The notes beneath the pieces were generated by a model. The model was not told the origin of the DNA. It did no database searches and worked only from the letters and a program-made list of their open reading frames with translations. From assembly GCA_947466165.1 (NCBI GenBank), contig CANIDW010000007.1, positions 1 to 15,971 on the forward strand: a stretch of DNA of 15,971 nt, given 5' to 3'. This document shows, piece after piece, positions 1,806-15,150 of the stretch (its first letter is position 1; each line of letters starts with the position of its first letter). The translations under genes were made by a program, and so were the position numbers. The stretch comes from Comamonadaceae bacterium (lineage in GTDB: Bacteria > Pseudomonadota > Gammaproteobacteria > Burkholderiales > Burkholderiaceae_C).

Positions 1806-1840
1806 AAAGCCCGGCTCATTGCGATGCCGGGCTTTTTTTG
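1806..1840 (+). terminator. Rho-independent terminator after the helicase gene
   Basis: A perfect 10-bp stem (AAAGCCCGGC at 1806-1815, GCCGGGCTTT at 1826-1835) with a 10-base loop runs into seven T residues (1833-1839). It begins 18 bases after the helicase stop codon. The apaH stop codon (minus strand, 1818-1816) lies at the edge of the loop, and the 3' arm plus T-tract are antisense to the last codons of apaH. The A residues flanking the 5' arm could let it also act on minus-strand transcripts. Confidence 0.9.
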
Positions 1841-2685
1841 TTTGTCTTCATGGCTTCACAACCAACAGCGATTAACTCGTAAGCGCCCGCCGTCTGGCCC
1901 AGGCGTGCCGCCGTCAGGCAGCCGCCCCAGACGCAACCTGTGTCCAGTGCCAGTGTGTTGTCACGCAGCCTTGGTCCGGTGTCCAGCGCATCCAGTCCCA
2001 CGGTGGACCAATGGCCAAAAGCAATTGGCGTACCCGCCGAGAGTCGGCCCGGCACATGGAACCAGGGCATGAAGCCCTGGGGCGCTGTGCTGGCCGCGCC
2101 CTTGGTTTGAAACTCCATTTCACCCTGCGGGCTGCAAAAGCGCAGGCGTGTGAGCGCGTTGACGATCACGCGCAGCCGGTCCTTGCCGCGCAGGTCCTCA
2201 TGCCACAGAGCTGGCGTGTTGCCGTACATGCCGGTCAAAAAATCCATGAAATGCGGACTGCGCAGCGCTTGCTCGACTTCGCCGGCCAGCTCCAGCGTGC
2301 GCGTCACTGTCCACTGGGGCAGCACGCCGGCATGCACCAACAGCCAGCCTTCTACCTGCAAGGCCATGTGTTGGTGGCGAACCCAGTCCAACCAGGCCGT
2401 GCGCTGCGGTGATTGCAGGATCGCATCCAGGGTGTCGCCGCGGTGCTGCGGGCGCAGACCGTAGCCCACCATCAGCAGGTGCAGGTCGTGGTTGCCGAGC
2501 AGGCACCGGGCTGAATCACCCATGTCTGCCAGGGTTTGCAGCAGGGCCAGCGAGTCCGGGCCGCGGTTGACCAGATCGCCCAGCAGGTAGATGGTGTCGC
2601 GGCTGGGCGAGAAATCGATGCTGCGTAAAAGTCGCTGCAAAGGCTCGTGGCAGCCCTGCAGGTCACCGATGAAGTAAAGTGCCAT
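1816..2685 (-). CDS. apaH: Bis(5'-nucleosyl)-tetraphosphatase, symmetrical (ApaH)
   Basis: Cytoplasmic metallophosphoesterase that hydrolyses diadenosine tetraphosphate (Ap4A) to two ADP, controlling alarmone levels and, in E. coli, removing Np4 caps from RNA. Metal-binding motifs are clear: GDLQGC (7-12), GDLVNRGPDS (36-45) and GNHDLH (64-69), in ApaH order. Length is 289 residues, close to E. coli ApaH (about 280). The start at 2685 places the GD motif seven residues in, as in the family; upstream in-frame ATGs (2709, 2826) would add a non-conserved extension and overlap the divergent gene more. The C-terminal end (NKKSPASQ) is encoded across the helicase terminator. The start codon shares its bases with that of the divergent CBS-domain gene. 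Confidence 0.9.
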   Translation of the reverse strand: MALYFIGDLQGCHEPLQRLLRSIDFSPSRDTIYLLGDLVNRGPDSLALLQTLADMGDSARCLLGNHDLHLLMVGYGLRPQHRGDTLDAILQSPQRTAWLDWVRHQHMALQVEGWLLVHAGVLPQWTVTRTLELAGEVEQALRSPHFMDFLTGMYGNTPALWHEDLRGKDRLRVIVNALTRLRFCSPQGEMEFQTKGAASTAPQGFMPWFHVPGRLSAGTPIAFGHWSTVGLDALDTGPRLRDNTLALDTGCVWGGCLTAARLGQTAGAYELIAVGCEAMKTNKKSPASQ

Positions 2686-4015
2686 GTCTTCATTTTCGTC
2701 TGCTTTCATGGATATTTTGCTGATCGTCTTGCTGACCTTGCTCAATGGCGTGTTCGCCATGTCGGAGCTGGCGCTCGCCTCAAGCCGTAAAGCACGTCTG
2801 ACGGCAGCGGCTGAAGCGGGCGACAAGGGCTCTCAGGCCGCGCTGAGTTTGCTGGCCAACCCGACGCAGTTTTTATCGTCTGTGCAGGTGGGCATCACCT
2901 CGATCGGCATGCTCAACGGCATCATCGGAGAGGCGGCTTTCAGCGGCGCATTGTCAGCCCTGATACAGACCTGGGGCGTGTCGGTGCGAGCTGCCGATAT
3001 CTCGGCCACGGCGCTGGTGGTGGTGGTCATTACTTACATCACCATCGTTTTCGGCGAGTTGGTGCCTAAGCGCATTGGTCAGCTTTACCCCGAAACGGTT
3101 GCCCGGCTGGTCGCGCGTCCGATGATGTGGGTCGCCATTGGCGCACGTCCCTTTGTACGCCTGCTTTCATTCAGCACCCATGTCGTGCTGCAACTCCTGC
3201 GCGTGGACAACGCTGCCAACCGGGCTGTGACCGAGGAAGAAATCACCGCCAGTCTGGAAGAGGGCGTGAGCGCCGGCTTGATCGAAGAGCATGAGCACCA
3301 AATGGTGCAAAACGTCTTTTTGCTGGACGACCGCCTGCTGACATCCTTGATGTTGCCGCGCTCTGAAATTCAATGGCTCGATGCGAACGACACACTGCCG
3401 CAGGCCATTGCCAAAGCCAGTGTCACCGGACACTCCTGGTACCCGGTGTGCCGCGGCAGTCTCGATGAAGTGATGGGCGTGGTTAAGTTAAGCGATCTGC
3501 TGGCGCAGTCTCATGCCAATGCAAATGCCGCCCCGGTTCAGGGAAAGCGTGTGGCTGACTGCACCCTGCCGGCGGTTTTTGTGCCCGAGTCGCTCAGTGG
3601 AATGGAGTTACTCGAGCAGTTCCGCGAACGCTCCACACGTATCTTGCTGGTGGTTGACGAATACGGTGTGGTGCAGGGAATGATGACGCCACTGGACATG
3701 CTGGAAGCTATCACGGGTGAGCTTCAGTCCGGCGCTCAGGTGGACGCCTGGGCAATCGAGCGCGCTGATGGCCGCTGGCTGCTCGATGGCGTGATGCCGG
3801 TGTCCGAACTCAAGGCCAGGCTGGACATCCGGCAGCTGCCGGGCGAAGAGCGTGGCCGCTACAACACCGTGGCGGGCTTGTTGCAAAGCGTCTCGGGTCG
3901 CTTGCCGGCAAAGGGAGAAAAGATTGAAACTGCAGGCTGGTGTTTTGAGATCACGGGCCTGGACGGCAAACGCATAGACACCGTGCTGGCGAGCCGGACA
4001 TCACCCGAGGCCTGA
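2684..4015 (+). CDS. CNNM/CBS/CorC-domain membrane protein (HlyC/CorC, 'hemolysin' family)
   Basis: An inner-membrane protein of the CNNM/CorC family, linked to Mg2+ or other divalent cation efflux; the old label 'hemolysin' is historical. The N-terminal CNNM (DUF21) region covers about residues 9-180, with hydrophobic segments near 9-27, 65-98, 105-126 and 145-172 and the family-typical VFGELVPKRIGQLYPE (122-137). A CBS pair follows at about 215-345 (LMLPRSEIQWLD; VVDEYGVVQGMMT), then a CorC/HlyC C-terminal domain (about 355-435) with RYNTVAGLL (392-400). Length 443 is normal. Start choice is open: ATG 2684 (weak upstream purines) or ATG 2708, which gives MDILLIVLL, the more usual family start. 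It is divergent from apaH with no intergenic gap, so its promoter must lie within apaH coding sequence. Confidence 0.88.
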   Translation: MSSFSSAFMDILLIVLLTLLNGVFAMSELALASSRKARLTAAAEAGDKGSQAALSLLANPTQFLSSVQVGITSIGMLNGIIGEAAFSGALSALIQTWGVSVRAADISATALVVVVITYITIVFGELVPKRIGQLYPETVARLVARPMMWVAIGARPFVRLLSFSTHVVLQLLRVDNAANRAVTEEEITASLEEGVSAGLIEEHEHQMVQNVFLLDDRLLTSLMLPRSEIQWLDANDTLPQAIAKASVTGHSWYPVCRGSLDEVMGVVKLSDLLAQSHANANAAPVQGKRVADCTLPAVFVPESLSGMELLEQFRERSTRILLVVDEYGVVQGMMTPLDMLEAITGELQSGAQVDAWAIERADGRWLLDGVMPVSELKARLDIRQLPGEERGRYNTVAGLLQSVSGRLPAKGEKIETAGWCFEITGLDGKRIDTVLASRTSPEA

Positions 4016-4588: not shown

Positions 4589-4612
4589 CCAGTCAGCCCG
4601 GTGGCTGGCTGG
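4589..4612 (-). other. Hairpin at the end of hpt
   Basis: CCAGTCAGCC (4589-4598) pairs with GGCTGGCTGG (4603-4612) with one imperfect position and a 4-base loop. It spans the hpt stop codon (4595-4593, minus strand). No U-tract follows directly on the minus strand (only TTTT about 15 bases on), so it could be an attenuator, an RNA-stabilising stem or a weak terminator between hpt and the lipoprotein gene. Confidence 0.4.
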
Positions 4613-4985
4613 ACTGTGCGGCCACCAGGCGCTTGAATTCGGCTTCTATTTCGCTCAGTGTGACGAGCAGTTCGTTGCCATTCCACTCAAGCGACTTGCT
4701 TGAGCCGGTTTGTTGTCGTTGGGCTGCCAGTGCCAGGGTCTGTTCTGCTTTTTCAAATGCCAGGGCTGCGGGCGTTGCGCTCACGGCATGACAACTGCCC
4801 TTCATTTTGTGCAGAAGTTTGCCGACGCCTTCAGCGTCGCCAGCCTGCAGGCGCTGTGCAAAGTCAGTTTGCCAAGACTCAAGTTGGCGAATGAAAGCAT
4901 CGGCCAGCCGGCTCAACAGGTCTGAACGATGACCAATCTGGTTGTTCAGTCGCTCAATGTCTATATGGGTTTGCAGCGGCGTCAT
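4593..4985 (-). CDS. Hpt-domain histidine phosphotransfer protein
   Basis: A 130-residue stand-alone phosphotransfer protein that would relay a phosphoryl group between a hybrid kinase receiver and a response regulator. The Hpt signature is LLHKMKGSCHAVSA, with the HxxKG pattern giving His59 as the likely phosphorylated residue, Lys62 and Gly63. The surrounding sequence is predicted helical throughout, as expected for a four-helix bundle. There is no kinase catalytic domain, signal peptide or membrane segment, so it is cytoplasmic. Its ATG (4985-4983) overlaps the stop of the upstream response regulator (TGA 4984-4982) in an ATGA arrangement, so the two are probably translated in fixed ratio and work together. 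No histidine kinase is seen in the window. Confidence 0.85.
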   Translation of the reverse strand: MTPLQTHIDIERLNNQIGHRSDLLSRLADAFIRQLESWQTDFAQRLQAGDAEGVGKLLHKMKGSCHAVSATPAALAFEKAEQTLALAAQRQQTGSSKSLEWNGNELLVTLSEIEAEFKRLVAAQSSQPPG

Positions 4986-5626
4986 TCAGACAGGCCTTGC
5001 TTGAGATGAATTTGCACATGCGCGTCCAAAAAGCCGCGCATTCTTTCCATGTTGATCGGTTTGGGGAAAAACAGCACGCCCGGCGGCAGTCCGCCCCGGC
5101 GCTCAATGTCGTCCATGCTCAAGCCAGACAGCACGAGGGTTGAAATGGAGCAGTATTCCGCATGGCTGCCCATCATGCTGAGCAGACGAAAGCCGTCAAA
5201 GGGCTCCATGTTGAGGTCGGTGATCAGTAAATTGGGGCGAATCCGTTCGAGTTGCATCACGGCGTCCAGGCCATCGGTGGCGACGGTGCAACGCACTTGC
5301 GGGTAATGGTTTTCGAACATGCTGACCAGTGCGAGAGCTGAAACCTTGTCATCTTCGACGATCAAGACATTGACTTGCTGGGAAACAGCCCGCCGGTTGG
5401 ACAGATTGGGCGTCCTGTTTCCCTGGTTCAAGGTCGCCAGCCGCAGCATGGCCTTTGGCCCCATTTTTTGATCCAGCGCGTCTATGGAGCTGCGCAAAAT
5501 ACGCCGGTGGCCGCCGTTTGTCTTGACCGCCGGCAGTTGGCCGGAGTCAACCAATTTCTGAACGGATGTGCGCGACAAGCCCAAAATTTGAGCCGCTTCA
5601 CCAATGCCTACAAAGTCAACAGCCAT
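4982..5626 (-). CDS. Response regulator with N-terminal excisionase/MerR-like HTH and C-terminal receiver domain
   Basis: A 214-residue cytoplasmic regulator with reversed architecture: DNA-binding domain first, receiver second. Residues 5-50 form an excisionase-type winged HTH (GIGEAAQILGLSRTSVQKLVDSGQLP, then the wing KTNGGHRRI). Residues 85-205 form a receiver with acidic pocket E91-D92-D93, phospho-acceptor D137 (LLITDLNM), switch S167 (VLSG) and K189 (FFPKP), so it should be phosphorylatable. A linker of about 30 residues (55-84, basic, Asn-rich) joins them. Start 5626 is supported by AGGA (5636-5633) six bases upstream and by the HTH beginning at once; the longer start at 5686 lacks this. 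It overlaps hpt by four bases. Target genes are unknown; the divergent dehydrogenase cluster is an obvious but unproven candidate. Confidence 0.85.
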   Translation of the reverse strand: MAVDFVGIGEAAQILGLSRTSVQKLVDSGQLPAVKTNGGHRRILRSSIDALDQKMGPKAMLRLATLNQGNRTPNLSNRRAVSQQVNVLIVEDDKVSALALVSMFENHYPQVRCTVATDGLDAVMQLERIRPNLLITDLNMEPFDGFRLLSMMGSHAEYCSISTLVLSGLSMDDIERRGGLPPGVLFFPKPINMERMRGFLDAHVQIHLKQGLSE

Positions 5627-6057
5627 TTTTTTTCCTACTTGCCAAGCAGCGCGTGTTGCTGGCCTGTGCCCAGCATTGTCGCCCATGGGATTTTTGTAAA
5701 AATTAAACTAAAGAACTCATATTTATGTAAAAAACGATTTTAAGTATACCTAAAAAATTCATTTATTGATTTTTCACCAGCAAAGTGTGAAAAAACAGAA
5801 ATTTTGTCAATTAAACAGGTATTTGTTTTTATCTACCTGGGCTTTGCCGCCTCAAGCGGCTGTATTTGACTTTCTGCGATCGGGAACTGATTAACTTCTT
5901 TAAATAGCAAATTGATATGGGCTTCAACGAATTCAGCATTGGACAAGGCGACGGGCGCTTTTTAAAGTAGACACTTCGCTTCATCAACCCTGTTGACTCT
6001 CATGTTGTCCACTAATTCAATGCTTTTGTCCACGGCCCTGTCTGAGGGCTTGTCATC
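5627..6057. other. AT-rich divergent intergenic region
   Basis: No sizeable gene is supported here. The part from about 5690 to 5840 is strongly AT-rich compared with the coding sequence around it and should contain the promoter of the minus-strand regulator-hpt operon. A TATACT (minus strand, 5748-5743) is a possible -10, without a clear -35. Other structure: a dyad CAGGTA (5816-5821) and TACCTG (5834-5839) separated by 12 bases; a small GCCGC/GCGGC hairpin (5846-5860); a sigma70-like promoter for the plus strand (listed separately); and a 19-codon ORF at 6002-6061. The low GC may reflect intrinsic DNA bending or a nucleoid-protein-bound regulatory region. Confidence 0.6.
5993..6021 (+). promoter_or_regulatory. 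Putative sigma70 promoter of the dehydrogenase cluster
   Basis: TTGACT (5993-5998, 5/6 match to the -35 consensus) is followed after exactly 17 bases by TTCAAT (6016-6021, 4/6 match to the -10). Transcription would start near 6028, giving a leader of about 30 bases before the TTG start at 6058 that includes the GAGGG ribosome site at 6044-6048. Found by eye; no activator site is established. Confidence 0.4.
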
Positions 6058-6061
6058 TTGA
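6002..6061 (+). CDS. Possible 19-residue leader peptide overlapping the dehydrogenase start
   Basis: ATG at 6002 (or the in-frame ATG at 6020) opens a short frame ending with TGA at 6059-6061. Its stop overlaps the TTG start codon of the dehydrogenase (6058-6060) as TTGA, the arrangement that allows reinitiation. The peptide is Ser/Leu/Thr-rich (begins MLSTNSMLLS) with no run of one amino acid suggesting attenuation. There is no clear Shine-Dalgarno for it, and if transcription starts near 6028 its start codons would not be in the mRNA. It is therefore only a possibility. Confidence 0.2.
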   Translation: MLSTNSMLLSTALSEGLSS

Positions 6062-7122
6062 ACCCCCATGCCAACTCCACCATCCTGAGTTTTGAGGCTA
6101 TTCGAAACTTCATTGAGGCTGCGCTGAGTAGCCAGGGCCTGCCGCCAGCTGATGCCCTCAAAGTGGCGTCGCTGATGGCTGAGGCCGACATGCAGGGCTC
6201 TGACGGCCATGGCGTGATCCGCCTGCCCATGTACATCAAGCGCATCCAGGCCGGCGGCATCAACAAAAACCCGGTCATCAAGGTGGTGCAGGAGCGCGCT
6301 GCCATGGCCGTGGTGGATGGCGACAACGGCATGGGGCACCTGGTGGTGTCGCATGCGGTGGACCTGGCGATTGAAAAAGCCCGCAAATGCGGCGTGGCCT
6401 GGGTCAGCACCCGCTTTAGCAACCATGCCGGCCCGGCCTCGTTGTATGCGCGCAAGCCCTTGCAACATGACATGCTGGGCCTTTACTTTGCGGTGGGCAA
6501 CGCCAACCATTTGCCGCCCTGGGGCGGCATGGACATGCTGCTGTCCACCAACCCGATTGCCGCCGGTATTCCGACGGACAAAGAGCCGCCGGTGGTGCTC
6601 GACATGGCCACCACCGTGGCCGCTTACGGCAAGGTCAAGGCCAAGGCCAAGCGCGGCGAGATGATGCCCGAGGGCTGGATGATCGACCGCCAGGGCAAAC
6701 CGCTGACCGATCCGAAGCGCGCCGAAGAAGGCTTTTTATTGCCGATCGGCGAGCACAAGGGCTATGGACTGGCGCTCATCGTCGGCCTGCTCGCCGGCAC
6801 GCTGGGCGGCGCGGCCATGGGGCGCGAGGTGGTGGACTTCAATGCCGACCATGTGAGCATCACCAACACAGGCCAGGCTATTTTGGTGATTGACCTGAGC
6901 GCCTTTGGCGACCCGGCGGTCTTCAAGCACGCTGTCGATACGGTGGTCAAAGACATTCGAAACAGTGAAAAAATGCCCGGTGTGGAGCGCATCTGGCTGC
7001 CTGGTGAACAAAGCCACGAGCGCCGCCAGCGCTACCAGAGTGGCGGCATTCCGGTGGTCAACCAGCTCGTCACCGAACTCCAGTCCTTGGCCCGGGAGCT
7101 GGGCATTGCACCCCTTATATAA
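6058..7122 (+). CDS. Malate/L-lactate/ureidoglycolate dehydrogenase-family oxidoreductase (Ldh family)
   Basis: NAD(P)-dependent 2-hydroxyacid dehydrogenase of the Ldh_2 family (malate, sulfolactate, ureidoglycolate and related enzymes), with a fold unrelated to classical LDH/MDH. Family motifs: GSDGHGVIRLP (47-57), STRFSNHAG (117-125) with likely catalytic His123, STNPIAAGIPT (163-173), LDMATTVAAYGK (181-192) and GEHKGYGLAL (231-240). Length 354 is typical. Start: an in-frame TGA at 6043-6045 leaves TTG 6058 as the only sensible start; GAGGG (6044-6048) lies nine bases before it. The ATG at 6069 is in another frame. It is the first gene of the plus-strand cluster and 11 bases precede the semialdehyde dehydrogenase, suggesting that the hydroxyacid product feeds the same pathway. 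The exact substrate is not readable from sequence. Confidence 0.88.
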   Translation: MNPHANSTILSFEAIRNFIEAALSSQGLPPADALKVASLMAEADMQGSDGHGVIRLPMYIKRIQAGGINKNPVIKVVQERAAMAVVDGDNGMGHLVVSHAVDLAIEKARKCGVAWVSTRFSNHAGPASLYARKPLQHDMLGLYFAVGNANHLPPWGGMDMLLSTNPIAAGIPTDKEPPVVLDMATTVAAYGKVKAKAKRGEMMPEGWMIDRQGKPLTDPKRAEEGFLLPIGEHKGYGLALIVGLLAGTLGGAAMGREVVDFNADHVSITNTGQAILVIDLSAFGDPAVFKHAVDTVVKDIRNSEKMPGVERIWLPGEQSHERRQRYQSGGIPVVNQLVTELQSLARELGIAPLI

Positions 7123-7133
7123 GAACCCAGCAC

Positions 7134-8507
7134 ATGATTTCCTCCATCAATCCCGCCACAGACCAGCTGCTCGCCGAGTTTGCAGTCCATACCGAGCAGC
7201 AAATTGACCGTCAATTGGCGCAAGCGGCCAAGGCACAAAAAAGCTGGGCCCGCCTCGGCGTGCAGGCGCGCAGGCCCTATCTGAACAAAGTCGCTGCTAC
7301 ATTGCGCCAGCAAAAAGAGGCACTCGCCAGAATCATCACCCTGGAAATGGGCAAGCCCTTGAGTGAGGCGCTGGGCGAGGTTGAAAAATGCGCATGGAAC
7401 TTTGATTTTTATGCCGAGCAAGGCCCTGTCTTTCTGGCTGACCAGGTGGTGGCCAGCGCCGCCACCGACAGCCGCATTGTTTATGACCCGCTGGGCTTGG
7501 TGCTGGCGGTGATGCCATGGAACTATCCTTTCTGGCAGGTCATGCGGGCGGCTGCGCCTGTGCTCATTGGTGGTAACGGCTTGGTTCTCAAGCATGCCAG
7601 CAACGTGCCGCAATGCGCGATGGCGCTGGAGAAGGTGTTCAAAGACGCCGGGCTGCCCGAGGGTTTGTTTTGCACCATGATGGTGGGCGCTTCTGCGGTT
7701 CCCCGCCTGATTCAGGACGATCGGATTGCCGCCGTTACTTTCACCGGCTCGACGCCGGTGGGACGCAGCATTGCGTCGGTGGCCGGTCAGGCGCTGAAAA
7801 AACAGGTGCTGGAGTTGGGTGGCTCGGACCCCTTCATCGTACTGGCGGATGCCGACATCGAGGCCGCCGCTGCGGTGGGCGTGAAGGCGCGCTTTCAGAA
7901 CACCGGGCAAAGCTGCATTTCGTCCAAGCGTTTCATTGTTGAAGAATCCGTGGCCGGGCGCTTCGTGGACGCCTTTGTAGCGATCACGCAAAAGCTCGTG
8001 GTCGGCGACCCGTTTGCGCCAGCCAGCACCATCGGCTCGATGGCGCGTCGCAACCTGCGCGATGAACTGCATGCACAGGTTGTGGCCTCACTGGGAGAGG
8101 GTGCCAAATTACTCACTGGTGGAAACCCCATTGAGGGACCTGGCGCTTTCTATCAACCTACGGTGCTTGACCATGTCTCGCCCGCCATGACGGTTGCCAG
8201 AGAAGAAACCTTCGGCCCTGCCGCAGCCATCATCCGGGTGAAGTCGGTGGACGAAGCGATCATGGTGGCCAACGGCACGCCCTTTGGCTTGGGTGCCTCT
8301 TTATGGACTGGTGACATGGACCGGGCGCGCTTGTTGACGCACCAGATTGATTGCGGCGCAGTTTTTGTGAACGGCATGGTGGCCTCTGACCCGCGCCTGC
8401 CCTTTGGCGGCACCAAGCAGTCCGGCTATGGACGTGAACTGGGCTACTTGGGGCTGCACGAATTCACCAACATCAAGACGGTCTGGACCGGCCCGGCCAA
8501 AACCTGA
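7134..8507 (+). CDS. Aldehyde dehydrogenase, succinate-semialdehyde dehydrogenase (Sad/YneI)-like
   Basis: NAD(P)+-dependent oxidation of an aldehyde, probably a semialdehyde, to the acid in the cytoplasm. The 457-residue protein resembles E. coli Sad (YneI, NAD+-dependent succinate semialdehyde dehydrogenase, about 462 aa) along its length, including MPWNYPFWQVMR, LELGGSDPFIVL and the end LHEFTNIKTVW. Key residues: Asn130 (PWN), Lys153 (LKHAS), nucleotide loop GSTPVG (205-210), general base Glu227 (ELGG), catalytic Cys261 (NTGQSC), ETFGP (358-362) and FGGTKQSGYGRE (424-435). No signal peptide. ATG 7134 has no strong ribosome site and lies 11 bases after the Ldh gene, so coupling is likely. 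Substrate specificity within this group varies; succinate semialdehyde is the family default rather than a demonstrated substrate. Confidence 0.9.
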   Translation: MISSINPATDQLLAEFAVHTEQQIDRQLAQAAKAQKSWARLGVQARRPYLNKVAATLRQQKEALARIITLEMGKPLSEALGEVEKCAWNFDFYAEQGPVFLADQVVASAATDSRIVYDPLGLVLAVMPWNYPFWQVMRAAAPVLIGGNGLVLKHASNVPQCAMALEKVFKDAGLPEGLFCTMMVGASAVPRLIQDDRIAAVTFTGSTPVGRSIASVAGQALKKQVLELGGSDPFIVLADADIEAAAAVGVKARFQNTGQSCISSKRFIVEESVAGRFVDAFVAITQKLVVGDPFAPASTIGSMARRNLRDELHAQVVASLGEGAKLLTGGNPIEGPGAFYQPTVLDHVSPAMTVAREETFGPAAAIIRVKSVDEAIMVANGTPFGLGASLWTGDMDRARLLTHQIDCGAVFVNGMVASDPRLPFGGTKQSGYGRELGYLGLHEFTNIKTVWTGPAKT

Positions 8508-8537: not shown

Positions 8538-9074
8538 ATGGGTGTCAAATTTCTCGAGCATGTGTTGATACTGACCCACGACCCCGAGGGCACGCGCGAC
8601 TGGTTTTGCGAGAACCTCGGCTTTCGCAACGGCTACCACCCGGAGTTCGGTTTTCCGGTCTACTGGCTCTACATCGGCGAGCAGGACGTGCTGCACATCG
8701 GTAAGGCACGGCACTCCACGCATCAGGACACCTACCTCAAGACGCCCAGCGACCAGGCCGGCATTGACTACTCGGCCGCCGGTGCGCCCGGTTCAGGCCG
8801 CATTGACCATCTTTGCTTTAACTCCGAGGGCATGGCCGAGTTCATTGAACGCCTGACGCAAAACGGCGTCGAGTTCAGCGAGCGCAAGGCACACAACTCC
8901 AACCTCTACCAACTCTTCATGCGCGAGCCCATCAACGGCATCAAAGTCGAGCTGAACTTCGCCTGGGAAGAAGCCGCCAACATGGGACGCGTGCCCAAGT
9001 GGACGGACGCCGGTGAAAACGCAGAGCCCGCAGCCAACATCACCGCCTCCAAAGCAGTGCCGGCCAAGGCTTAG
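8538..9074 (+). CDS. VOC-superfamily (glyoxalase/extradiol dioxygenase-like) protein
   Basis: A 178-residue cytoplasmic protein of the vicinal oxygen chelate fold, which includes glyoxalase I, extradiol dioxygenases, epimerases and fosfomycin-resistance enzymes. Two beta-alpha-beta-beta-beta modules are visible: about 4-60 (FLEHVLILTHDPEGTRDWFCENLGF as strand and helix, VYWLYIGEQDVLHIG as strands) and about 86-142 (RIDHLCFN, then GIKVELNF). Likely metal ligands by position are His8, His53, His91 and Glu138, the glyoxalase-type pattern. The C-terminal 30 residues are an Ala-rich, probably unstructured extension (ends SKAVPAKA). AGGAG at 8525-8529, eight bases upstream, supports ATG 8538. It sits between an aldehyde dehydrogenase and a binding protein, so either a pathway enzyme or aldehyde/dicarbonyl detoxification is plausible; the reaction is not known. 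Confidence 0.82.
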   Translation: MGVKFLEHVLILTHDPEGTRDWFCENLGFRNGYHPEFGFPVYWLYIGEQDVLHIGKARHSTHQDTYLKTPSDQAGIDYSAAGAPGSGRIDHLCFNSEGMAEFIERLTQNGVEFSERKAHNSNLYQLFMREPINGIKVELNFAWEEAANMGRVPKWTDAGENAEPAANITASKAVPAKA

Positions 9075-9111: not shown

Positions 9112-10089
9112 ATGAACAGACGACATCTGCTTTCCAGTGGCACGGCGGCCTTGCTGGCCGGGCTGAGCATGCCTGCGTGGGCTCAAAAATACCCCGGCGG
9201 CCCAGTCAGCATTGTGCTGCCCTTGCAAGCCGGCAGCGCCTCTGACGTGGCGGTGCGCCACATGGCCGAACGCCTGGCAACGCGCTTGGGCGGCGGTTTT
9301 GTGGTGGAGAACGTGGCCGCTGCCGCTGGCCTCGTGGGGCTCGAGAAGATCTCCCGCGCCAAAGCCGACGGGCAGACTGTTGCGGCGCTCAACAACAGCA
9401 TCATGACCATCTTGCCGCACCTGCAGGCCAAGAACATGAAAGTGGACACCCGCAAAGACTTTGTGCCGGTCGCCGGCATTGCCAACATACCGACCTTTTT
9501 TGCGGTGCCCGCCAGCTCGTCTGTGCGCAATATTCAGGACCTGGTCAAACTGGCCAAAAGCGAACCCAAGCGCATCAACTACTCTTCCGGTGGTGTCGGC
9601 AGCCCGCAGCACCTGGCCACCGAGATGTTCACCGCCTACACCGGCACGCAACTCACGCATGTGCCCTACCGCGGCGCCAGCCAGGCGGCGCTGGCCGTGG
9701 CCACAGGCGAAGTGCAGCTGATGTCGATGGCGCTGTCCTTGGCACAACCCTTTTTGCAGGACAACCGGGTGCGCCTGATCGGCTACTGCGGCACCGACCG
9801 TCATGCGCAGTTTCGTGACATCCCGACCTTGCAGGAGCAGGGCGTGCGCGACTACGACTACTCGTCCTGGGTGGCCTTGTTTCTGCACAAGGACGTGCCC
9901 GCAGATGTGCTGGCAGTCTTGCGTCGAGAGGCGCAGGCGATCAGCGAAGACAAAGATTTCCAGCTACAGCTCATTCGCTCCGGCCTGGAGCCTTGGCCGC
10001 GCACTGCCGCTCAGTTGGGCCCCTTGGTCGAGGGCGACTTCCAGCGTTGGAAAAAGATCATCCAGGACGCCAATATCCAGGGCACCTGA
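9112..10089 (+). CDS. Bug/TctC-family periplasmic solute-binding protein (orphan)
   Basis: A 325-residue periplasmic binding protein of the Bug (Bordetella uptake gene)/TctC family, which binds small carboxylates and related compounds for tripartite tricarboxylate transporters. The signal peptide is clear: MNRRHLLSSG, hydrophobic core, cleavage after PAWA (residue 24). The RRHLL suggests possible Tat export. Family motifs: DFVPVAGIA (116-124), YSSGGVGSPQHLATEMF (157-173), THVPYRGASQA (182-192), RLIGYCGTDR (221-230) and WVALFLHKDVP (253-263). The start at 9112 puts the signal at the N-terminus; the longer start at 9013 overlaps the VOC gene and hides it. No TctA or TctB membrane gene is present, a common state for Bug proteins in Burkholderiales. 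It may supply another transporter or act as an extracytoplasmic sensor partner. Confidence 0.9.
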   Translation: MNRRHLLSSGTAALLAGLSMPAWAQKYPGGPVSIVLPLQAGSASDVAVRHMAERLATRLGGGFVVENVAAAAGLVGLEKISRAKADGQTVAALNNSIMTILPHLQAKNMKVDTRKDFVPVAGIANIPTFFAVPASSSVRNIQDLVKLAKSEPKRINYSSGGVGSPQHLATEMFTAYTGTQLTHVPYRGASQAALAVATGEVQLMSMALSLAQPFLQDNRVRLIGYCGTDRHAQFRDIPTLQEQGVRDYDYSSWVALFLHKDVPADVLAVLRREAQAISEDKDFQLQLIRSGLEPWPRTAAQLGPLVEGDFQRWKKIIQDANIQGT

Positions 10090-10099
10090 GTCCGCTGGC

Positions 10100-11029
10100 A
10101 TGGCTGTTTCCCCGATTCGTTTGGCTGGTTACCAAGGCCAGGGCTCTATCCTGACCGGCGCGCTGCGCCAATTGACCGGTCAGCTGCAAGACTCCGGCTG
10201 GGGCTTGCCTGTCGATTGCGAAGACGACGTCACGGTCGCGCAAGAAAAAGCCAGCGCGCTGTTTGACTCTGTGGAGCAAGGCAATCGGCATATCTGCTAC
10301 ATGGCTTCGGGTTACCTGTCAGCGCGCGTGCCTGAGCTGGCGGTGCTGGACCTGCCTTTTTCAGTCGCGGACCGCGCTGCGGCACTGGCCGCCCTGGACG
10401 GACAGGCCGGCCGCATGCTTAGCCGGGCAGTGGCCGCGCAAAGCGGCTTTCAGGTGCTGGCTTACTGGGACAACGGTTTTCGCCACATCTCCAATGCCGT
10501 GCGCCCCATCACCAGTCCCAAGGACTGTGCGGGTATGGTGATACGCACGCTGGACAGCGCCCATTACCGCGCTGCATTGAGTGCGCTGGGTTTTGCGCCT
10601 GTGACCACGGATGTGCGCGAGTTGCTGCGCGTGGTGCAAAGCGGCGAAGTTCAGGCCCAGGAAAACCCCTTGACCAATTTGCTCAACTTCGGCCTGTGGA
10701 AATACCACCCGCATGTCAGCCTGACGCAGCATTACTTTGGTGTGCTGCTGCTGGTCTGCCCGCGCAGCTGGTACGAGGGGCTGAGCGCCGCCCAGCGGCA
10801 GACCTTGTCGGTGGCCGCCAAGTTGGTCACGCATGAGCAGCGCAACAACGCTGAAACGCAAGACGCGATTGCGCTGGCCCAGCTCAAAAGCCACGGGGTG
10901 CAGGTGGTCGCCGCAGATGCGATCGACTTGGCCGCCATGCGCCTGGCCACGCAAGAAGTGGCGCAGCAACAACGCCAGAGCTTGCCCCCCGATCTGCTGC
11001 GTGCCTATTTCCAGGGCATGGCGCACTGA
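10100..11029 (+). CDS. TRAP-type solute-binding (DctP-like) protein without a signal peptide
   Basis: A 309-residue protein of the TRAP substrate-binding fold. It begins directly with the first beta strand (PIRLAGYQG, 5-13). There is no hydrophobic export signal, and upstream in-frame sequence within the Bug gene supplies none. Ligand-associated features of DctP proteins are retained: GYLSARVPELAVLDLPFSV (71-89), WDNGFRHISN (123-132), DCAGMVIRT (142-150) with Arg149 at the usual ligand-arginine position, and SGEVQAQENPLTNLL (181-195). It therefore looks like a working binding domain kept in the cytoplasm. It starts 10 bases after the Bug gene (weak ribosome site), so coupling is likely. Possible roles are cytoplasmic ligand sensing, substrate sequestration or an enzymatic activity; an unrecognised export route is also possible. 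No membrane segment is seen. Confidence 0.8.
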   Translation: MAVSPIRLAGYQGQGSILTGALRQLTGQLQDSGWGLPVDCEDDVTVAQEKASALFDSVEQGNRHICYMASGYLSARVPELAVLDLPFSVADRAAALAALDGQAGRMLSRAVAAQSGFQVLAYWDNGFRHISNAVRPITSPKDCAGMVIRTLDSAHYRAALSALGFAPVTTDVRELLRVVQSGEVQAQENPLTNLLNFGLWKYHPHVSLTQHYFGVLLLVCPRSWYEGLSAAQRQTLSVAAKLVTHEQRNNAETQDAIALAQLKSHGVQVVAADAIDLAAMRLATQEVAQQQRQSLPPDLLRAYFQGMAH

Positions 11030-11070: not shown

Positions 11071-12054
11071 ATGAAAGTTAAAGCAGTCCGATTCCACGCC
11101 GCCGGCGGCCCTGAAGTTCTGAAAATAGAGCAACTTGATTTGCCCGAACCCGCGCAGGGCGAAGTGACTATTCGCCATACCGCCATTGGTTTTAACTTCC
11201 AGGACATTTATGTCCGCTCGGGCATGTACCCGGTCGAGCTGCCCTCTGGGCTGGGCACTGAAGCGGCCGGCGTGGTTGAAAAAGTCGGCCCCGGTGTGAC
11301 AGATTTCAAAGCGGGTGACCGCGTCTGCTACATCAGCGGCCCGGTGCTGGCTGCCTGCGCCAGCCACCGCAATTACCCGGCTGCGCGTCTGCTGCATTCG
11401 CCCGACTTCATGACAGACGAGCAACTGGCTGCCAGCATGCTCAAAGGCATGACGGTGGAGTACCTGATGCAGCGCTGCTACCCGGTCAAGGCCGGGCAAT
11501 TCGTTTTGATGCACGCAGCCGCAGGCGGCGTGGGCCTGCTCGCAGGGCAGTGGGGAAAGCACCTGGGTGCACGCATGATCGGCGTGGCAGGCGGCGCTGA
11601 CAAAGTGGCTTTGGCCAAGGCCAATGGCTACGAGTTCTGCATTGACCGGCGCACCGAAGACATTGCCGCGCGCGTCAAAGAGATCACCGGTGGCGCCGGC
11701 GTGCCCGTGGTGTTTGACTCTGTGGGCAAAGACTCGTTTGAGGCCTCACTCAACTCACTGGCACCCCGTGGCTACTTTGTGTCTTTCGGCACCACCACCG
11801 GCGCGCCGCCGCCTGTGGTCGCCGGCACCTTGCAAAAAATGGGCTCGCTGTATTTCACGCGGCCCACGCTGGTCACTTACACCGCCTCGACCGAAGACTT
11901 GCGCAACTCAGCAGCTGCGGTGTTTGACATGTTCAAGCGCGGCGCTCTGAAAGTCAGCATCAACCAGCGCTACAAGATGCAAGACGTGGCCCAAGCCCAT
12001 GCCGATCTGGCAGGCGGCAAAACCTCGGGTTCGAGCATCATCCTGCCAAGTTGA
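11071..12054 (+). CDS. Quinone oxidoreductase, zinc-independent MDR family (QorA-like)
   Basis: NADPH-dependent quinone/enone reductase of the medium-chain dehydrogenase/reductase superfamily, cytoplasmic. The 327-residue sequence closely follows E. coli QorA (Qor): GGPEVLKIE (12-20), IGFNFQDIYVRSGMYP (39-54), LPSGLGTEAAGVVEKVG (57-73), LKGMTVEYLM (124-133), nucleotide-binding HAAAGGVGLLAGQWGK (148-163), VFDSVGKDSFE (214-224), VSFG (237-240) and GSLYFTRPTL (258-267). The zinc-ligand cysteine cluster of alcohol dehydrogenases is absent, as expected for quinone reductases. It starts 41 bases after the signal-less TRAP-like gene. A hairpin with a short T-run follows its stop, so it is probably the last gene of the first transcription unit. 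It may reduce a pathway enone or detoxify quinones. Confidence 0.9.
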   Translation: MKVKAVRFHAAGGPEVLKIEQLDLPEPAQGEVTIRHTAIGFNFQDIYVRSGMYPVELPSGLGTEAAGVVEKVGPGVTDFKAGDRVCYISGPVLAACASHRNYPAARLLHSPDFMTDEQLAASMLKGMTVEYLMQRCYPVKAGQFVLMHAAAGGVGLLAGQWGKHLGARMIGVAGGADKVALAKANGYEFCIDRRTEDIAARVKEITGGAGVPVVFDSVGKDSFEASLNSLAPRGYFVSFGTTTGAPPPVVAGTLQKMGSLYFTRPTLVTYTASTEDLRNSAAAVFDMFKRGALKVSINQRYKMQDVAQAHADLAGGKTSGSSIILPS

Positions 12055-12174: not shown

Positions 12175-13242
12175 ATGATCAATCGTTTCAAATCCACTTT
12201 GCTGGTTGGCTTGCTGGGCCTGCTGGGCGCGTCAGCGGCCAGCGCCGAAGACATCAGGCTGCGTATCGCCTCGGGTCACCCGGCGGCCAATACCTATGTC
12301 AACCTGATGCAGAACTTCTTTGTGCCCGAAGTCACCAAGCGCGTGGCTGCCCGCACCGCGCACAAAGTTGAATTTGTTGAAGGTTACGGCGGCTCCATGG
12401 TCAAGGTGGCCGACACGCTGGAAGGCGTGCAGTCGGGCCTGATCGACATCGGCGGTTACTGCTTTTGCTTTGAAGCCTCCAACCTGCCGCTCAATGCGTT
12501 TCAGGTCATGCTGCCCTTTGGTTCCATGAACTCTGAGACCAGCGTCAAGCTCGCGCGCACTGTCTACAACAGGGTGCCCCAGTTGTCCAAGGTCTTTGAG
12601 GACAAGTTCAACCAGCAGCTGATCGCTCTCATTTCTGACAACGGCTACAACCTGGGCACCACTTTTGAGTGGAACAAGGTCAGCGACCTCAAAGGCCGCA
12701 AGATCGCCGGTGCCGGCCTGAACCTCAAATGGCTGGAATACGCCGGCGTGGTGCCGGTGCAGTCTTCGCTGCCCGAGGCTTACACCTCCATGCAGACCGG
12801 TGTTTACAACGGCTGGATCATGTTCCCGTCGGCCTGGGTCAACTTCAAGCTCAATGAAGTGGCCAACAACTACACCGAAGTCGGCTTCGGCGCCATCACC
12901 TGGCACGGTCTGACCATCAACAAGGCCCGCATGGCCCGTTTGCCCAAAGACGTGCAGGCCATCGTCATTGAGGTGGCCAAAGAGTTCGAGGCCAAGACAG
13001 GTTCTGTCAACCAGGAAAACTATCCCAAGCAGATTGCCCAGCTCAAGACCATGGGCGTGAACGTCAAGTCCGTGCCGGATGCGGTGCGCCTGGAGTGGGC
13101 CAACTCGCTCAAGGACTGGCCACAAGCCATGGCGACCGACCTCGATGCCAAGGGCCTGCCCGGCTCGCAGGTGCTGAAGATCACGCTGGAAGAAGCTGAA
13201 AAGCTGGGCCACAAATGGCCTGTGCGCTACGTGATCAAGTAA
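12175..13242 (+). CDS. TRAP transporter solute-binding protein (DctP family)
   Basis: Periplasmic binding protein of a tripartite ATP-independent periplasmic transporter. A Sec signal peptide (basic MINRFK, Leu-rich core, cleavage after ASA at residue 24) is followed by a typical DctP fold of about 330 residues: IRLRIASGHP (27-36), GSMVKVADTLEGVQSGLIDIGG (73-94), LISDNGYNLGTTFEWNKVSDLKG (152-174), EAYTSMQTGVYNGWIMFPSAW (201-221) and WHGLTINKARMARLP (243-257). In canonical DctP proteins DLKGLKIR carries the ligand-binding arginine; here the segment is DLKGRKIAGAG, with Ala178 at that place. The ligand may therefore be uncharged or held differently. It is the first gene of the TRAP operon, with a strong ribosome site, and lies 12 bases before dctQ. 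The high expression signal fits the need for excess binding protein. Confidence 0.92.
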   Translation: MINRFKSTLLVGLLGLLGASAASAEDIRLRIASGHPAANTYVNLMQNFFVPEVTKRVAARTAHKVEFVEGYGGSMVKVADTLEGVQSGLIDIGGYCFCFEASNLPLNAFQVMLPFGSMNSETSVKLARTVYNRVPQLSKVFEDKFNQQLIALISDNGYNLGTTFEWNKVSDLKGRKIAGAGLNLKWLEYAGVVPVQSSLPEAYTSMQTGVYNGWIMFPSAWVNFKLNEVANNYTEVGFGAITWHGLTINKARMARLPKDVQAIVIEVAKEFEAKTGSVNQENYPKQIAQLKTMGVNVKSVPDAVRLEWANSLKDWPQAMATDLDAKGLPGSQVLKITLEEAEKLGHKWPVRYVIK

Positions 13243-13254
13243 GACAAGAGCCCG

Positions 13255-13773
13255 ATGCTGACCAAATTCAATGACTGGGTCACCAAGGCCCTGATGGTGG
13301 CGGCCGCCATCCTGGCCTTCATGCTGTGTTTCCTGGTTGTGGCCGACGTCGGCGGACGGGTGCTCTTTAACAGCCCGATCAAGGGCACGCCGGAGATCAT
13401 CTCGCTGTCCATCGTGATCATTTGCTTTCTCCAGTGCGGATTCGCCATCCGCTCCGGGGGCATGCTCAATGTGGACACGCTGGTGGTGCGCTTTTCGCCC
13501 AAGGTGCAGAGCTGGCTGGCCGTGTGGGGTGCGGTCGCCGGCTTGTTTTTCTTTGGTGTGATCTGTTACGGCATGCTGGGTGGTGCAGCGCACGCCTGGG
13601 CCTCCGGTGAATACGAGGGCGAAGGCGCGTTGCGCGTGCCGGTCTGGCCCGCCAAGTTCGTGATCGTCCTTGGTTGCAGCCTGGCCAGCCTGAGCTACCT
13701 GATCTTGATCCTGCAAAACTTCCAGCATGCCCTTAAGGGCGAGTTGCCAGTGAAGTCCTCCAGCCAACACTGA
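13255..13773 (+). CDS. TRAP transporter small permease subunit (DctQ)
   Basis: Small inner-membrane subunit of the TRAP permease, needed together with DctM for Na+-driven solute uptake. The 172-residue protein has four hydrophobic segments at about 10-32, 47-67, 86-108 and 132-153, the DctQ topology. Family features: DVGGRVLFNSPIKGTPEI (31-48), the loop GGMLNVDTLV (68-77) and VPVWPAKFVIVLG (128-140) before the last helix. ATG 13255 follows dctP by 12 bases, with a purine-rich site (AAGAG) just upstream. The dctM gene follows after 12 bases. DctQ and DctM are separate genes here rather than fused. Confidence 0.92.
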   Translation: MLTKFNDWVTKALMVAAAILAFMLCFLVVADVGGRVLFNSPIKGTPEIISLSIVIICFLQCGFAIRSGGMLNVDTLVVRFSPKVQSWLAVWGAVAGLFFFGVICYGMLGGAAHAWASGEYEGEGALRVPVWPAKFVIVLGCSLASLSYLILILQNFQHALKGELPVKSSSQH

Positions 13774-13785
13774 GCGAGAAAATTG

Positions 13786-15150
13786 ATGTTTGATCCCACC
13801 GACATGATCATCCTGGTCAGCGTGCTGCTGGTCCTGGTGTTCACAGGTATTCACATCGCGGTGTCGCTGGGCATCACCAGCATGCTGGGCATTTACCTCA
13901 TGACCGGTCAGGTCGAGACGGTGCTGAGCTTCACATCGAACACCGCCTACGAGGCGCTGCGCGACTACATCTTTGCCGTCATTCCACTGTTCCTGCTGAT
14001 GGGCGAGTTTTTAGCCAAGTGCGGGGCGGCCACGGACCTCTTTGCGCTGATCAACCGCGCCACGCGCCGCGTTCCAGGCCGGCTGGGTGTGGCCACGGTG
14101 CTGGCTAACGCCGTGTTTGCGTTTATCACCGGCGTGTCGATTGCCGCGGCGGCGGCTTTCTCCAAGATTGCTTACCCCGAAATGCGCCGCTTCGGCTACG
14201 AGCGCAAGTTCGCGCTGGGTTGCATTGCCGGCAGCGCCTGCCTGGGCATGTTGATTCCGCCTTCTGTGCTGATGATCGTCTGGGGCGTGCTGACCGAGAT
14301 GGCGATTGGCAAGCTGTTCATCGCCGGCATCATCCCGGGCTTTATTGTGGTGACGCTGTTTATCGGGTACATCATGTGGGTGGCCATCCGCCACCCCGAG
14401 CGCGTGGGCGAGGGCGCCGTGCTACCGGCAGCTCAGCAGCTGGCGCGCGACGCCAACGACCTGGTCGAAGAAAAAGACATGAAAGCCATCTTGCTCAGCA
14501 CCCTGGGTATTTTGTGCCTGATCGTGCTGGTGCTGGGCGGTATCTGGCTGGGTCTCTTCACCCCGACCGAGGGTGCGGGCGTGGGTGCCACGCTGGCGCT
14601 CATTCTGGCTTTGATGCGCGGCATGAAGATGTCTGAAATGCTGGAGGCCATTTTGTCGGTGGGCAAGACCTCGGCACCCCTGCTGCTTTTGCTGGTCGCC
14701 GCGCAGCTTTACTCGCGCGTGCTGGCCATGACGGGTGTGACTGGCGCTACCAAAGATTTTTTCCTGAACTCCGGCTTGTCGCCTTATGTCATTTTGGCGC
14801 TGATGGTGCTGGTCTGGTTCATTCTGGGTTGCATCATTGACTCCATCTCCATCATCTTGCTGACGGTGCCGGTGTTTGCGCCCCTGGCCACGGCCCTGGG
14901 TTTTGACCCCATTGCTTTTGCGATCATCGGCATCATCGCGATTGAAACCGGCTTGCTGACGCCGCCTTTCGGCATATTGGTCTTTACCGTGAAAGCGGCG
15001 GTGACCGACGAAAAAGACCTCACGCCGGGGGAAATTTTCAAGGGCTCCATACCCTACTGGATCATGCTGCTGATCGCGATTTTGGCTCTGGTCTTCTTTC
15101 CGCAAGTCGCGACCTGGCTGCCCAATCTGGGCAACGCGGTCAAGCTCTAA
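13786..15150 (+). CDS. TRAP transporter large permease subunit (DctM)
   Basis: The main transport subunit of the TRAP permease, an inner-membrane protein of the ion transporter superfamily that couples Na+ influx to uptake of the DctP-bound solute. The 454-residue sequence is hydrophobic throughout (about 11-12 helices), with repeat hallmarks: FAVIPLFLLMGEFLAKCG (63-80), PEMRRFGYERKFALGCIAGS (131-150), LGMLIPPSVLMIVWG (153-167), FTPTEGAGVGA (258-268), DSISIILLTVPVFAPL (352-367) and ETGLLTPPFGILVF (387-400). A polar loop at about 203-232 separates the halves. ATG 13786 is preferred over the adjoining TTG 13783; CGAGAAA lies just upstream. It follows dctQ by 12 bases and precedes the DUF1330 gene by 14 bases, all one operon. 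Confidence 0.93.
   Translation: MFDPTDMIILVSVLLVLVFTGIHIAVSLGITSMLGIYLMTGQVETVLSFTSNTAYEALRDYIFAVIPLFLLMGEFLAKCGAATDLFALINRATRRVPGRLGVATVLANAVFAFITGVSIAAAAAFSKIAYPEMRRFGYERKFALGCIAGSACLGMLIPPSVLMIVWGVLTEMAIGKLFIAGIIPGFIVVTLFIGYIMWVAIRHPERVGEGAVLPAAQQLARDANDLVEEKDMKAILLSTLGILCLIVLVLGGIWLGLFTPTEGAGVGATLALILALMRGMKMSEMLEAILSVGKTSAPLLLLLVAAQLYSRVLAMTGVTGATKDFFLNSGLSPYVILALMVLVWFILGCIIDSISIILLTVPVFAPLATALGFDPIAFAIIGIIAIETGLLTPPFGILVFTVKAAVTDEKDLTPGEIFKGSIPYWIMLLIAILALVFFPQVATWLPNLGNAVKL

Follow-up and report, generated by a model that had tools for sequence, protein, structure and literature searches.

TRAP solute-binding proteins work in the periplasm and require an export signal. The stretch of DNA analysed here, 15,971 nucleotides from a Comamonadaceae bacterium (hereafter the window), encodes a protein with the fold of the DctP binding proteins that appears to lack such a signal, here called X. 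The locus therefore raises the question of whether the signal is really missing and, if so, in which compartment the protein resides and what it could do there.

The open reading frame of X was found where the original prediction had placed it (10100-11029, forward strand; Table 1), as were the ligand-site arginine, Arg149, within an MVIRT segment and the QENP segment, which comprises residues 187-190. The sole Pfam match of the protein at E 0.001 was to DctP (PF03480; E 1.6e-50), and at that threshold X is not a member of the TctC family (PF03401). It passed the NCBIfam model NF037995, 'TRAP transporter substrate-binding protein DctP' (122.9 bits, cut-off 50), and stayed below the cut-off of TIGR00787 (130.6 against 175.05). 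The predicted structure, with a pLDDT of 96.6, is a complete DctP fold extending over all 309 amino acids, in which strand 1 begins at residue 6, and the solved DctP chains near X among the matches listed were 4pdh, 4pak, 4xeq, 4pdd, 4ovq and 7bbr (DctPAm, a sugar-acid binder). In sequence, predicted fold, ligand-site arginine and Q-E-N-P segment X is a DctP protein, but two characters of the class are lacking, namely the N-terminal export signal and a DctQ and DctM encoded alongside as its transporter. A comparison of X with its counterpart in locus L009 rendered a dN of 0.187 and a dS of 1.785, and three more pairs gave dN values of 0.325-0.405 and dS values of 1.213-2.325, with dS near saturation. 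A search of PHROGs matched a single family, phrog_31178, of unknown function, and a plasmid search, scored by identity only, returned 781 records, all below 60% identity. In one metagenome homologue (P0007) the last third is almost identical to X and the remainder far less similar, so that it resembles an assembly chimera.

Table 1. Features of the X locus; coordinates are positions in the window, and residue numbers are those of X
Feature	Coordinates	Strand	Remarks
Ldh_2 type 2-hydroxyacid dehydrogenase	6058..7122	+	Same-strand cluster; Pfam
Aldehyde dehydrogenase, succinate-semialdehyde-dehydrogenase-like	7134..8507	+	
VOC/glyoxalase-superfamily protein	8538..9074	+	Neighbour in 12/58 loci
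tctC, TTT binding protein with export signal	9112..10089	+	10 nt upstream of X
X, DctP-fold protein without signal	10100..11029	+	309 aa, ATG to TGA; ORF list, Pfam, model
G10-Y11-Q12-G13, group motif after strand 1	10127..10138	+	Tyr11 in 56/56 group members, 0/59 ordinary DctPs
Cys66-Tyr67 in strand 3	10295..10300	+	Tyr67 in 56/56 group members, 0/59 ordinary DctPs
Tyr72	10313..10315	+	53/56 group members, 1/59 ordinary DctPs
Arg128 (NGFRH)	10481..10483	+	56/56 group members, 54/59 ordinary DctPs
Arg149, DctP ligand-site arginine	10544..10546	+	56/56 group members, 59/59 ordinary DctPs
Q187-E188-N189-P190 segment	10658..10669	+	Common to group and ordinary DctPs
His203	10706..10708	+	51/56 group members, 0/59 ordinary DctPs (Gln in 57/59)
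Zinc-type quinone oxidoreductase/alcohol dehydrogenase family protein	11071..12054	+	
Complete TRAP transporter	12175..15150	+	Exported DctP 12175-13242, DctQ 13255-13773, DctM 13783-15150

The presence of a signal was judged from hydropathy (Kyte-Doolittle, means over 12 residues) and from the positions of start codons, and in ordinary DctPs by eye. The reading frame of X is open upstream to about base 9779, with starts 108, 104 and 74 codons before the GYQ motif, and this open stretch is tctC read out of frame. No hydrophobic core was found at the ATG at 10100 or in the extended X, the best 12-residue mean being 0.61 as against 1.46 for TctC and 2.24 for the other DctP of the window by the same measure. 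A start codon is located at most 14 residues before the motif in 55 of the 56 group loci, L022 being the exception, and 25 of the 56 have a stop in the same frame so near that at most 20 codons separate it from the first motif. A signal hidden behind upstream starts was rejected on these grounds: the upstream frame is out-of-frame tctC without a hydrophobic core, and relatives have close in-frame stops. Hydropathy and the structural model thus bear out the earlier claim that X starts at its first strand, has no hydrophobic N-terminus and finds no rescue upstream.

The short N-terminus is not peculiar to the window. The GYQ motif was present in 119 of 120 listed homologues, preceded by a median of 10 residues (15 or fewer in 110), and a second search, begun from the most distant arm of the group, rendered the same 119 of 120, with a median of 8 residues (15 or fewer in 111) and an outlier, P0226, with 63. 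The missing signal, whose conservation among homologues had been proposed as a check, is indeed common to the whole group, and an upstream sequencing error that would restore a signal is contradicted by the same 5' end in other genomes. Since the relatives of X show the same short N-terminus, the absence of a signal in X was taken as real. The nearest ordinary DctPs from the bacterial family of the window, on the other hand, all have a signal sequence (29 of 29, by eye), and in that family they reach bit scores of up to 172 as against 398-538 for the signal-less proteins.

In a tree of 54 signal-less and 59 ordinary DctP rows, a single branch separates the two sets (SH-aLRT 99). An earlier tree, with 56 signal-less and 34 other rows, had placed the signal-less rows in one group (SH-aLRT 100), together with a truncated L056 paralogue whose low score had led to its being labelled ordinary; for the second tree, 29 ordinary DctPs were added and six doubtful rows were removed (L056_can2, which is this paralogue, the other DctP of the window, L004_can37, L064_can106, and L042 and L055, truncated). 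Most simply, the group of X would descend from a TRAP solute-binding protein whose signal was lost once, long ago; both trees were short-search trees rooted by the choice of outgroup, which makes a single loss the simplest reading of them and not a proof. A further, truncated member of the group is encoded at the start of the L056 contig, which also carries the main one.

Members of the group were found in Pseudomonadota, Actinomycetota, Nitrospinota, Rokubacteria and Tectomicrobia, the loci coming in finer terms from Beta-, Alpha- and Gammaproteobacteria (a Granulosicoccaceae), Acidimicrobiia, Nitrospinota, Rokubacteria and Tectomicrobia. In the bacterial family of the window, 5 of 399 genomes carried a group member at E 1e-60, and in a sample of Pseudomonadota 34 of 398 genomes matched A2 at E 1e-55, the genome of the window being included in both counts. 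The 29 non-window loci fetched from the latter sample all encode a hydrophobic N-terminus, by eye, and are therefore ordinary DctPs, with no group member among them; L156 was flagged by its motif but has a signal. Eight listed matches of this sample had no locus of their own, of which one was seen inside L132 and the other seven lie outside the count. Because both genome searches scored about five candidates per genome, the rarity of the group is only roughly stated by these figures. The 56 loci used for motifs include L090-L093 and the window, and the 58 used for gene context add L043 and L045, which are truncated and lack the N-terminus; the set contains near-copies (L048/L053/L057; L025/L027; L012/L013; L039/L041/L042/L051), so that the counts given throughout are not of independent events.

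Cysteine tends to be scarce in exported proteins. The 56 members of the group average 3.59 cysteines across the aligned fold, as compared with 0.49 in the 59 ordinary DctPs and 0.21 in the 29 of these that come from the bacterial family of the window; the difference between the 56 and the 59 has a Mann-Whitney p of 4e-20, a value that is only indicative since the sequences are related. Cys66 is found in 42 and Cys143 in 47 of the 56 members, and neither in any of the 59 ordinary proteins, while the mean is lower, 1.96, among the 120 proteins listed for the distant arm. The missing signal and this cytoplasm-like cysteine content make it very likely that X is cytosolic. Of the cytoplasmic binding domain put forward in the original prediction, the first half is thus strongly supported, by the signal-less group, the near in-frame stops, the cysteines and the gene partners described below; as to its role, which that prediction left open between sensor, carrier and enzyme, the evidence leans towards an enzyme without settling the matter.

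The residues that the group shares with ordinary DctPs and those that set it apart can be told from the alignments (Table 1). Arg149, Gln187, Asn189 and Pro190 are each present in 56 of 56 group loci, and Arg128, Arg149 and Asn189 would match carboxylate-binding residues of SiaP, which is consistent with an offset of two in the range of the alignment. Among the distinctive positions, Asp171 occurs in 48 of 56 group members and in 3 of 59 ordinary DctPs. Over 240 homologues from two listings, Tyr72, Arg128, His129, Arg149, Asn189, His203 and His211 were present in all 240, Asp or Glu was found at position 171 in 239, Tyr11 in all 238 with a residue there, and Tyr67 in 237 of 239. The alignments show a putative carboxylate clamp retained in the group, to which a new and near-invariant Tyr/His set has been added. 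In the structural model, with strands at 6-9 and 65-69, Tyr11 follows strand 1, Tyr67 is inside strand 3 and Tyr72 follows it. Regions after such strands form the ligand cleft in this fold, and from these positions and general knowledge of the fold the three tyrosines are inferred to be near the cleft.

The genes of the window cluster are arranged in the order Ldh_2, aldehyde dehydrogenase, VOC, TctC, X, quinone oxidoreductase and complete TRAP transporter. The dctQM genes lie 2-3 kb downstream of X behind a separate, exported DctP, the TRAP genes of the window having a binding protein of their own. To compare gene contexts, two control sets were taken, namely 29 ordinary DctPs from the bacterial family of the window (for distances up to 1.5 kb) and 27 ordinary loci mostly from other phyla (up to 8 kb); some of the loci counted are close relatives of one another or run off a contig end, and families were named from Pfam searches of representatives. 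Within 1.5 kb, DctM was found in 26 and TctC in 1 of the 29 same-family controls, as opposed to no DctM and a TctC in every locus of the betaproteobacterial sub-group of the window (0/14 and 14/14), and to 0/58 and 23/58, respectively, in all signal-less loci. Within 8 kb, TctC was found in 32/58 group loci versus 1/27 controls and TctA in 13/58 versus 1/27, the reverse being true of DctM (2/58 versus 18/27), which occurs anywhere in the locus in only four cases (the window, L014, L031 and L033). A link of X to the TRAP genes of the window was rejected as a general feature because of the 2/58 count. In relatives, the transporter companion of X is of the TTT type (TctC, TctA, TctB) and not TRAP.

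Enzymes are the other companions of X. Enriched within 8 kb were Gfo/Idh/MocA proteins (27/58 versus 0/27), 3-hydroxyisobutyrate-type dehydrogenases (HIBADH; 21/58 versus 3/27) and Ldh_2 (16/58 versus 0/27), as well as VOC (12/58), carboxymuconolactone-decarboxylase family (8/58) and FAH proteins (7/58), each versus 0/27; not clearly enriched at that distance were quinone oxidoreductases (QOR; 12/58 versus 5/27), SDR proteins (9/58 versus 7/27) and the regulators GntR (16/58 versus 5/27) and LysR (5/58 versus 2/27). The tctC gene is directly upstream of X, at 50 nt or less, in 13 of 55 loci, and in 7 of 55 a dehydrogenase gene overlaps X or ends at most 12 nt before it; overlaps of 4 nt with the following gene involve an SDR gene in L054 and an Ldh_2 gene in L058. 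The Ldh_2 protein of the window is nearest to L-sulfolactate and malate dehydrogenases, its aldehyde dehydrogenase to succinate-semialdehyde dehydrogenases, and the FAH neighbour in L010 to FAA-hydrolase and putative fumarylpyruvate-hydrolase chains, while the VOC protein had no PDB match at E 0.001; none of the aldehyde dehydrogenase, Ldh_2, quinone-oxidoreductase, FAH, 3-hydroxyisobutyrate-type and Gfo/Idh/MocA proteins reaches an NCBIfam cut-off among the matches listed. By their families, these neighbour enzymes point to hydroxy and keto acids as candidate substrates. In L030 (7830-12896), a malate synthase G gene adjoins X upstream and proteins of 255 and 376 amino acids without a Pfam match are encoded downstream, and open reading frames of 272 and 376 amino acids are likewise located downstream of X in L029. 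A ChrR-like cupin (Cupin_7, by Pfam on the L023 copy) is encoded within 8 kb of X in L023, L032, L056, L060 and L061, and in all of these except L056 it directly follows X downstream, encoded on the other strand.

In L058, from an Acidimicrobiaceae, X runs on into a cupin, with Pfam matches to DctP at residues 11-287 and to Cupin_2 at residues 348-416. A 92%-identical fusion, P0121, stands in the protein database for a cluster of ten sequences drawn from three sources, so that the fusion in L058 is not a single assembly accident; a protein of 300 amino acids with 88% identity (P0122) has no cupin. The X-cupin fusion is known from one narrow lineage. The same cupin family is encoded at most 4.4 kb from X in nine further loci of the 58 and in none of the 27 controls, and it was not found in the window. 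Against the PDB, the cupin had only weak matches to varied cupins, and Pfam detected no DNA-binding domain in the fusion protein.

The near-invariant new Tyr/His residues, the cupin fusion and the start/stop overlaps with dehydrogenase genes make us lean towards a catalytic role, although that X is an enzyme rather than a pure binding protein is, judged from sequence, about an even matter. The fuller proposal, which we hold tentatively and at somewhat less than even confidence, is that of a cross-phylum family of enzymes with the DctP fold that lost the signal, kept the clamp and gained the Tyr/His set with which to carry out a cofactor-free step in degrading TTT-fed acids, being fused to a cupin in one lineage. 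An organic acid would enter the cell through the TTT transporter, after being caught outside by TctC, and X would close in the cytosol on this acid or on a keto or hydroxy acid derived from it. Arg128, Arg149 and Asn189 would hold the carboxylate of the bound acid, and tyrosines 11, 67 and 72, with His203 or Asp/Glu171, would catalyse the cofactor-free step, candidate reactions being isomerisation, tautomerisation, dehydration and decarboxylation. This step could come before or after an oxidation by the adjoining Ldh_2, Gfo/Idh/MocA or 3-hydroxyisobutyrate-type dehydrogenase. It counts against an enzyme that a binding protein with a fixed ligand would also keep its cleft, and the enzyme partners vary among sub-groups, so that no single missing pathway step points to X. 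MqnA, MqnD and THI5/NMT1 are cytosolic enzymes of the type II periplasmic-binding-protein fold that have neither signal nor transporter, and they provide a precedent for the proposed mechanism; to our knowledge they are not DctP-family proteins, and MqnA, MqnD and THI5 were absent among the best 50 of 894 and the best 50 of 1000 fold matches.

It could also be the case that X does not catalyse at all. As a cytoplasmic ligand sensor, X would bind the imported acid or an intermediate and report to the transporter face, a regulator or an enzyme. LysR and LacI regulators do have cytosolic sensor domains resembling periplasmic binding proteins, and both the retained carboxylate clamp and the position of tctC directly upstream of X in 13/55 loci would fit; so would the example of BctC of Bordetella pertussis, which, as described in PMC5812351, is a TctC protein that transports and, with BctDE, also signals. 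BctC is a precedent for a TTT binding protein taking on a second role, but differs from X in acting outside the cytoplasm with a sensor kinase. X itself has the DctP fold throughout its 309 amino acids and no output domain, regulators are not a constant neighbour (see the GntR and LysR counts above), and the sole fusion seen is to a cupin and lacks a DNA-binding domain by Pfam, all of which makes a sensor rather unlikely. We find still more doubtful a substrate carrier or chaperone that would bind an intermediate in the cytosol, be it toxic, labile or scarce, and deliver it to the adjacent dehydrogenase or to a cupin/VOC protein: the overlaps with dehydrogenase genes and the cupin fusion fit a physical partnership, and the fold is a binding fold, but the partner families differ by sub-group, which is hard to square with one docking surface.

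The remaining explanations deny X its cytosolic place or its integrity. Export by a non-classical route, with either TctC carrying X or a cryptic leader, would make X a periplasmic TRAP or TTT binding protein; the product of the adjoining tctC is exported, a long frame is open upstream of X in the window and L022 has no start codon 4-14 residues before the motif. We consider it very improbable nevertheless, given that the upstream frame is out-of-frame tctC with no hydrophobic core, that in 25/56 loci the frame is closed by a stop 20 codons or fewer before the motif, that the cysteines are unlike those of exported DctPs and that DctM is found within 1.5 kb in none of the 58 loci. A decayed or mis-called gene, either a DctP pseudogene missing its 5' end or an assembly error, might be suspected in a genome of 343 contigs given as 74% complete, but is hardly credible and was rejected on the 5' end shared with other genomes (with GYQ in 119/120 listed proteins, a median of 10 residues from the start), the excess of dS over dN in the comparison with L009 and the complete predicted fold.

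Solute-binding proteins are treated as extracytoplasmic in PMC5812351 and PMC9602780, and no description of a signal-less or cytoplasmic TRAP binding protein was found in the literature searched, which leaves most subscription papers outside and includes PMC5812351 and PMC4996985. Most existing names of group proteins are TRAP transporter substrate-binding or periplasmic protein, which puts them on the wrong side of the membrane and links them with a transporter that they do not serve. X differs from the DctPs of TRAP transporters in its lack of a signal, its higher number of cysteines, the absence of a link to dctQM and the near-invariant Tyr11, Tyr67, Tyr72 and His203. It differs too from the TctC/Bug proteins of TTT transporters, its genomic companions (within 8 kb in 32/58 and within 1.5 kb in 23/58 loci), which belong to another Pfam family (PF03401 versus PF03480) and carry the signal that X lacks. 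The signal-less DctPs have a fair chance of being a group of enzymes on the DctP fold. If they are enzymes, a transport fold would have become a catabolic enzyme inside the DctP family, and an unassigned step of hydroxy- or keto-acid catabolism could be put to the test; as sensors or carriers, they would show how the cytosol could read or route a substrate delivered by a TTT system. The single split in the tree offers a clean system for studying a change of role.

Two further gene arrangements were seen in the window. On the reverse strand, the gene for a response regulator whose N-terminal domain is HTH_17 (4982-5686) shares 4 nt with that for a small Hpt-domain protein (4593-4985); the pair points away from the catabolic cluster, which begins at 6058, and is possibly its regulator. 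The genes for a calcineurin-like phosphoesterase (1816-2826, reverse strand) and a CNNM/CorC-type membrane protein (2684-4015, forward strand) overlap by 143 nt at their 5' ends, and the phosphoesterase may start internally to its first start codon.
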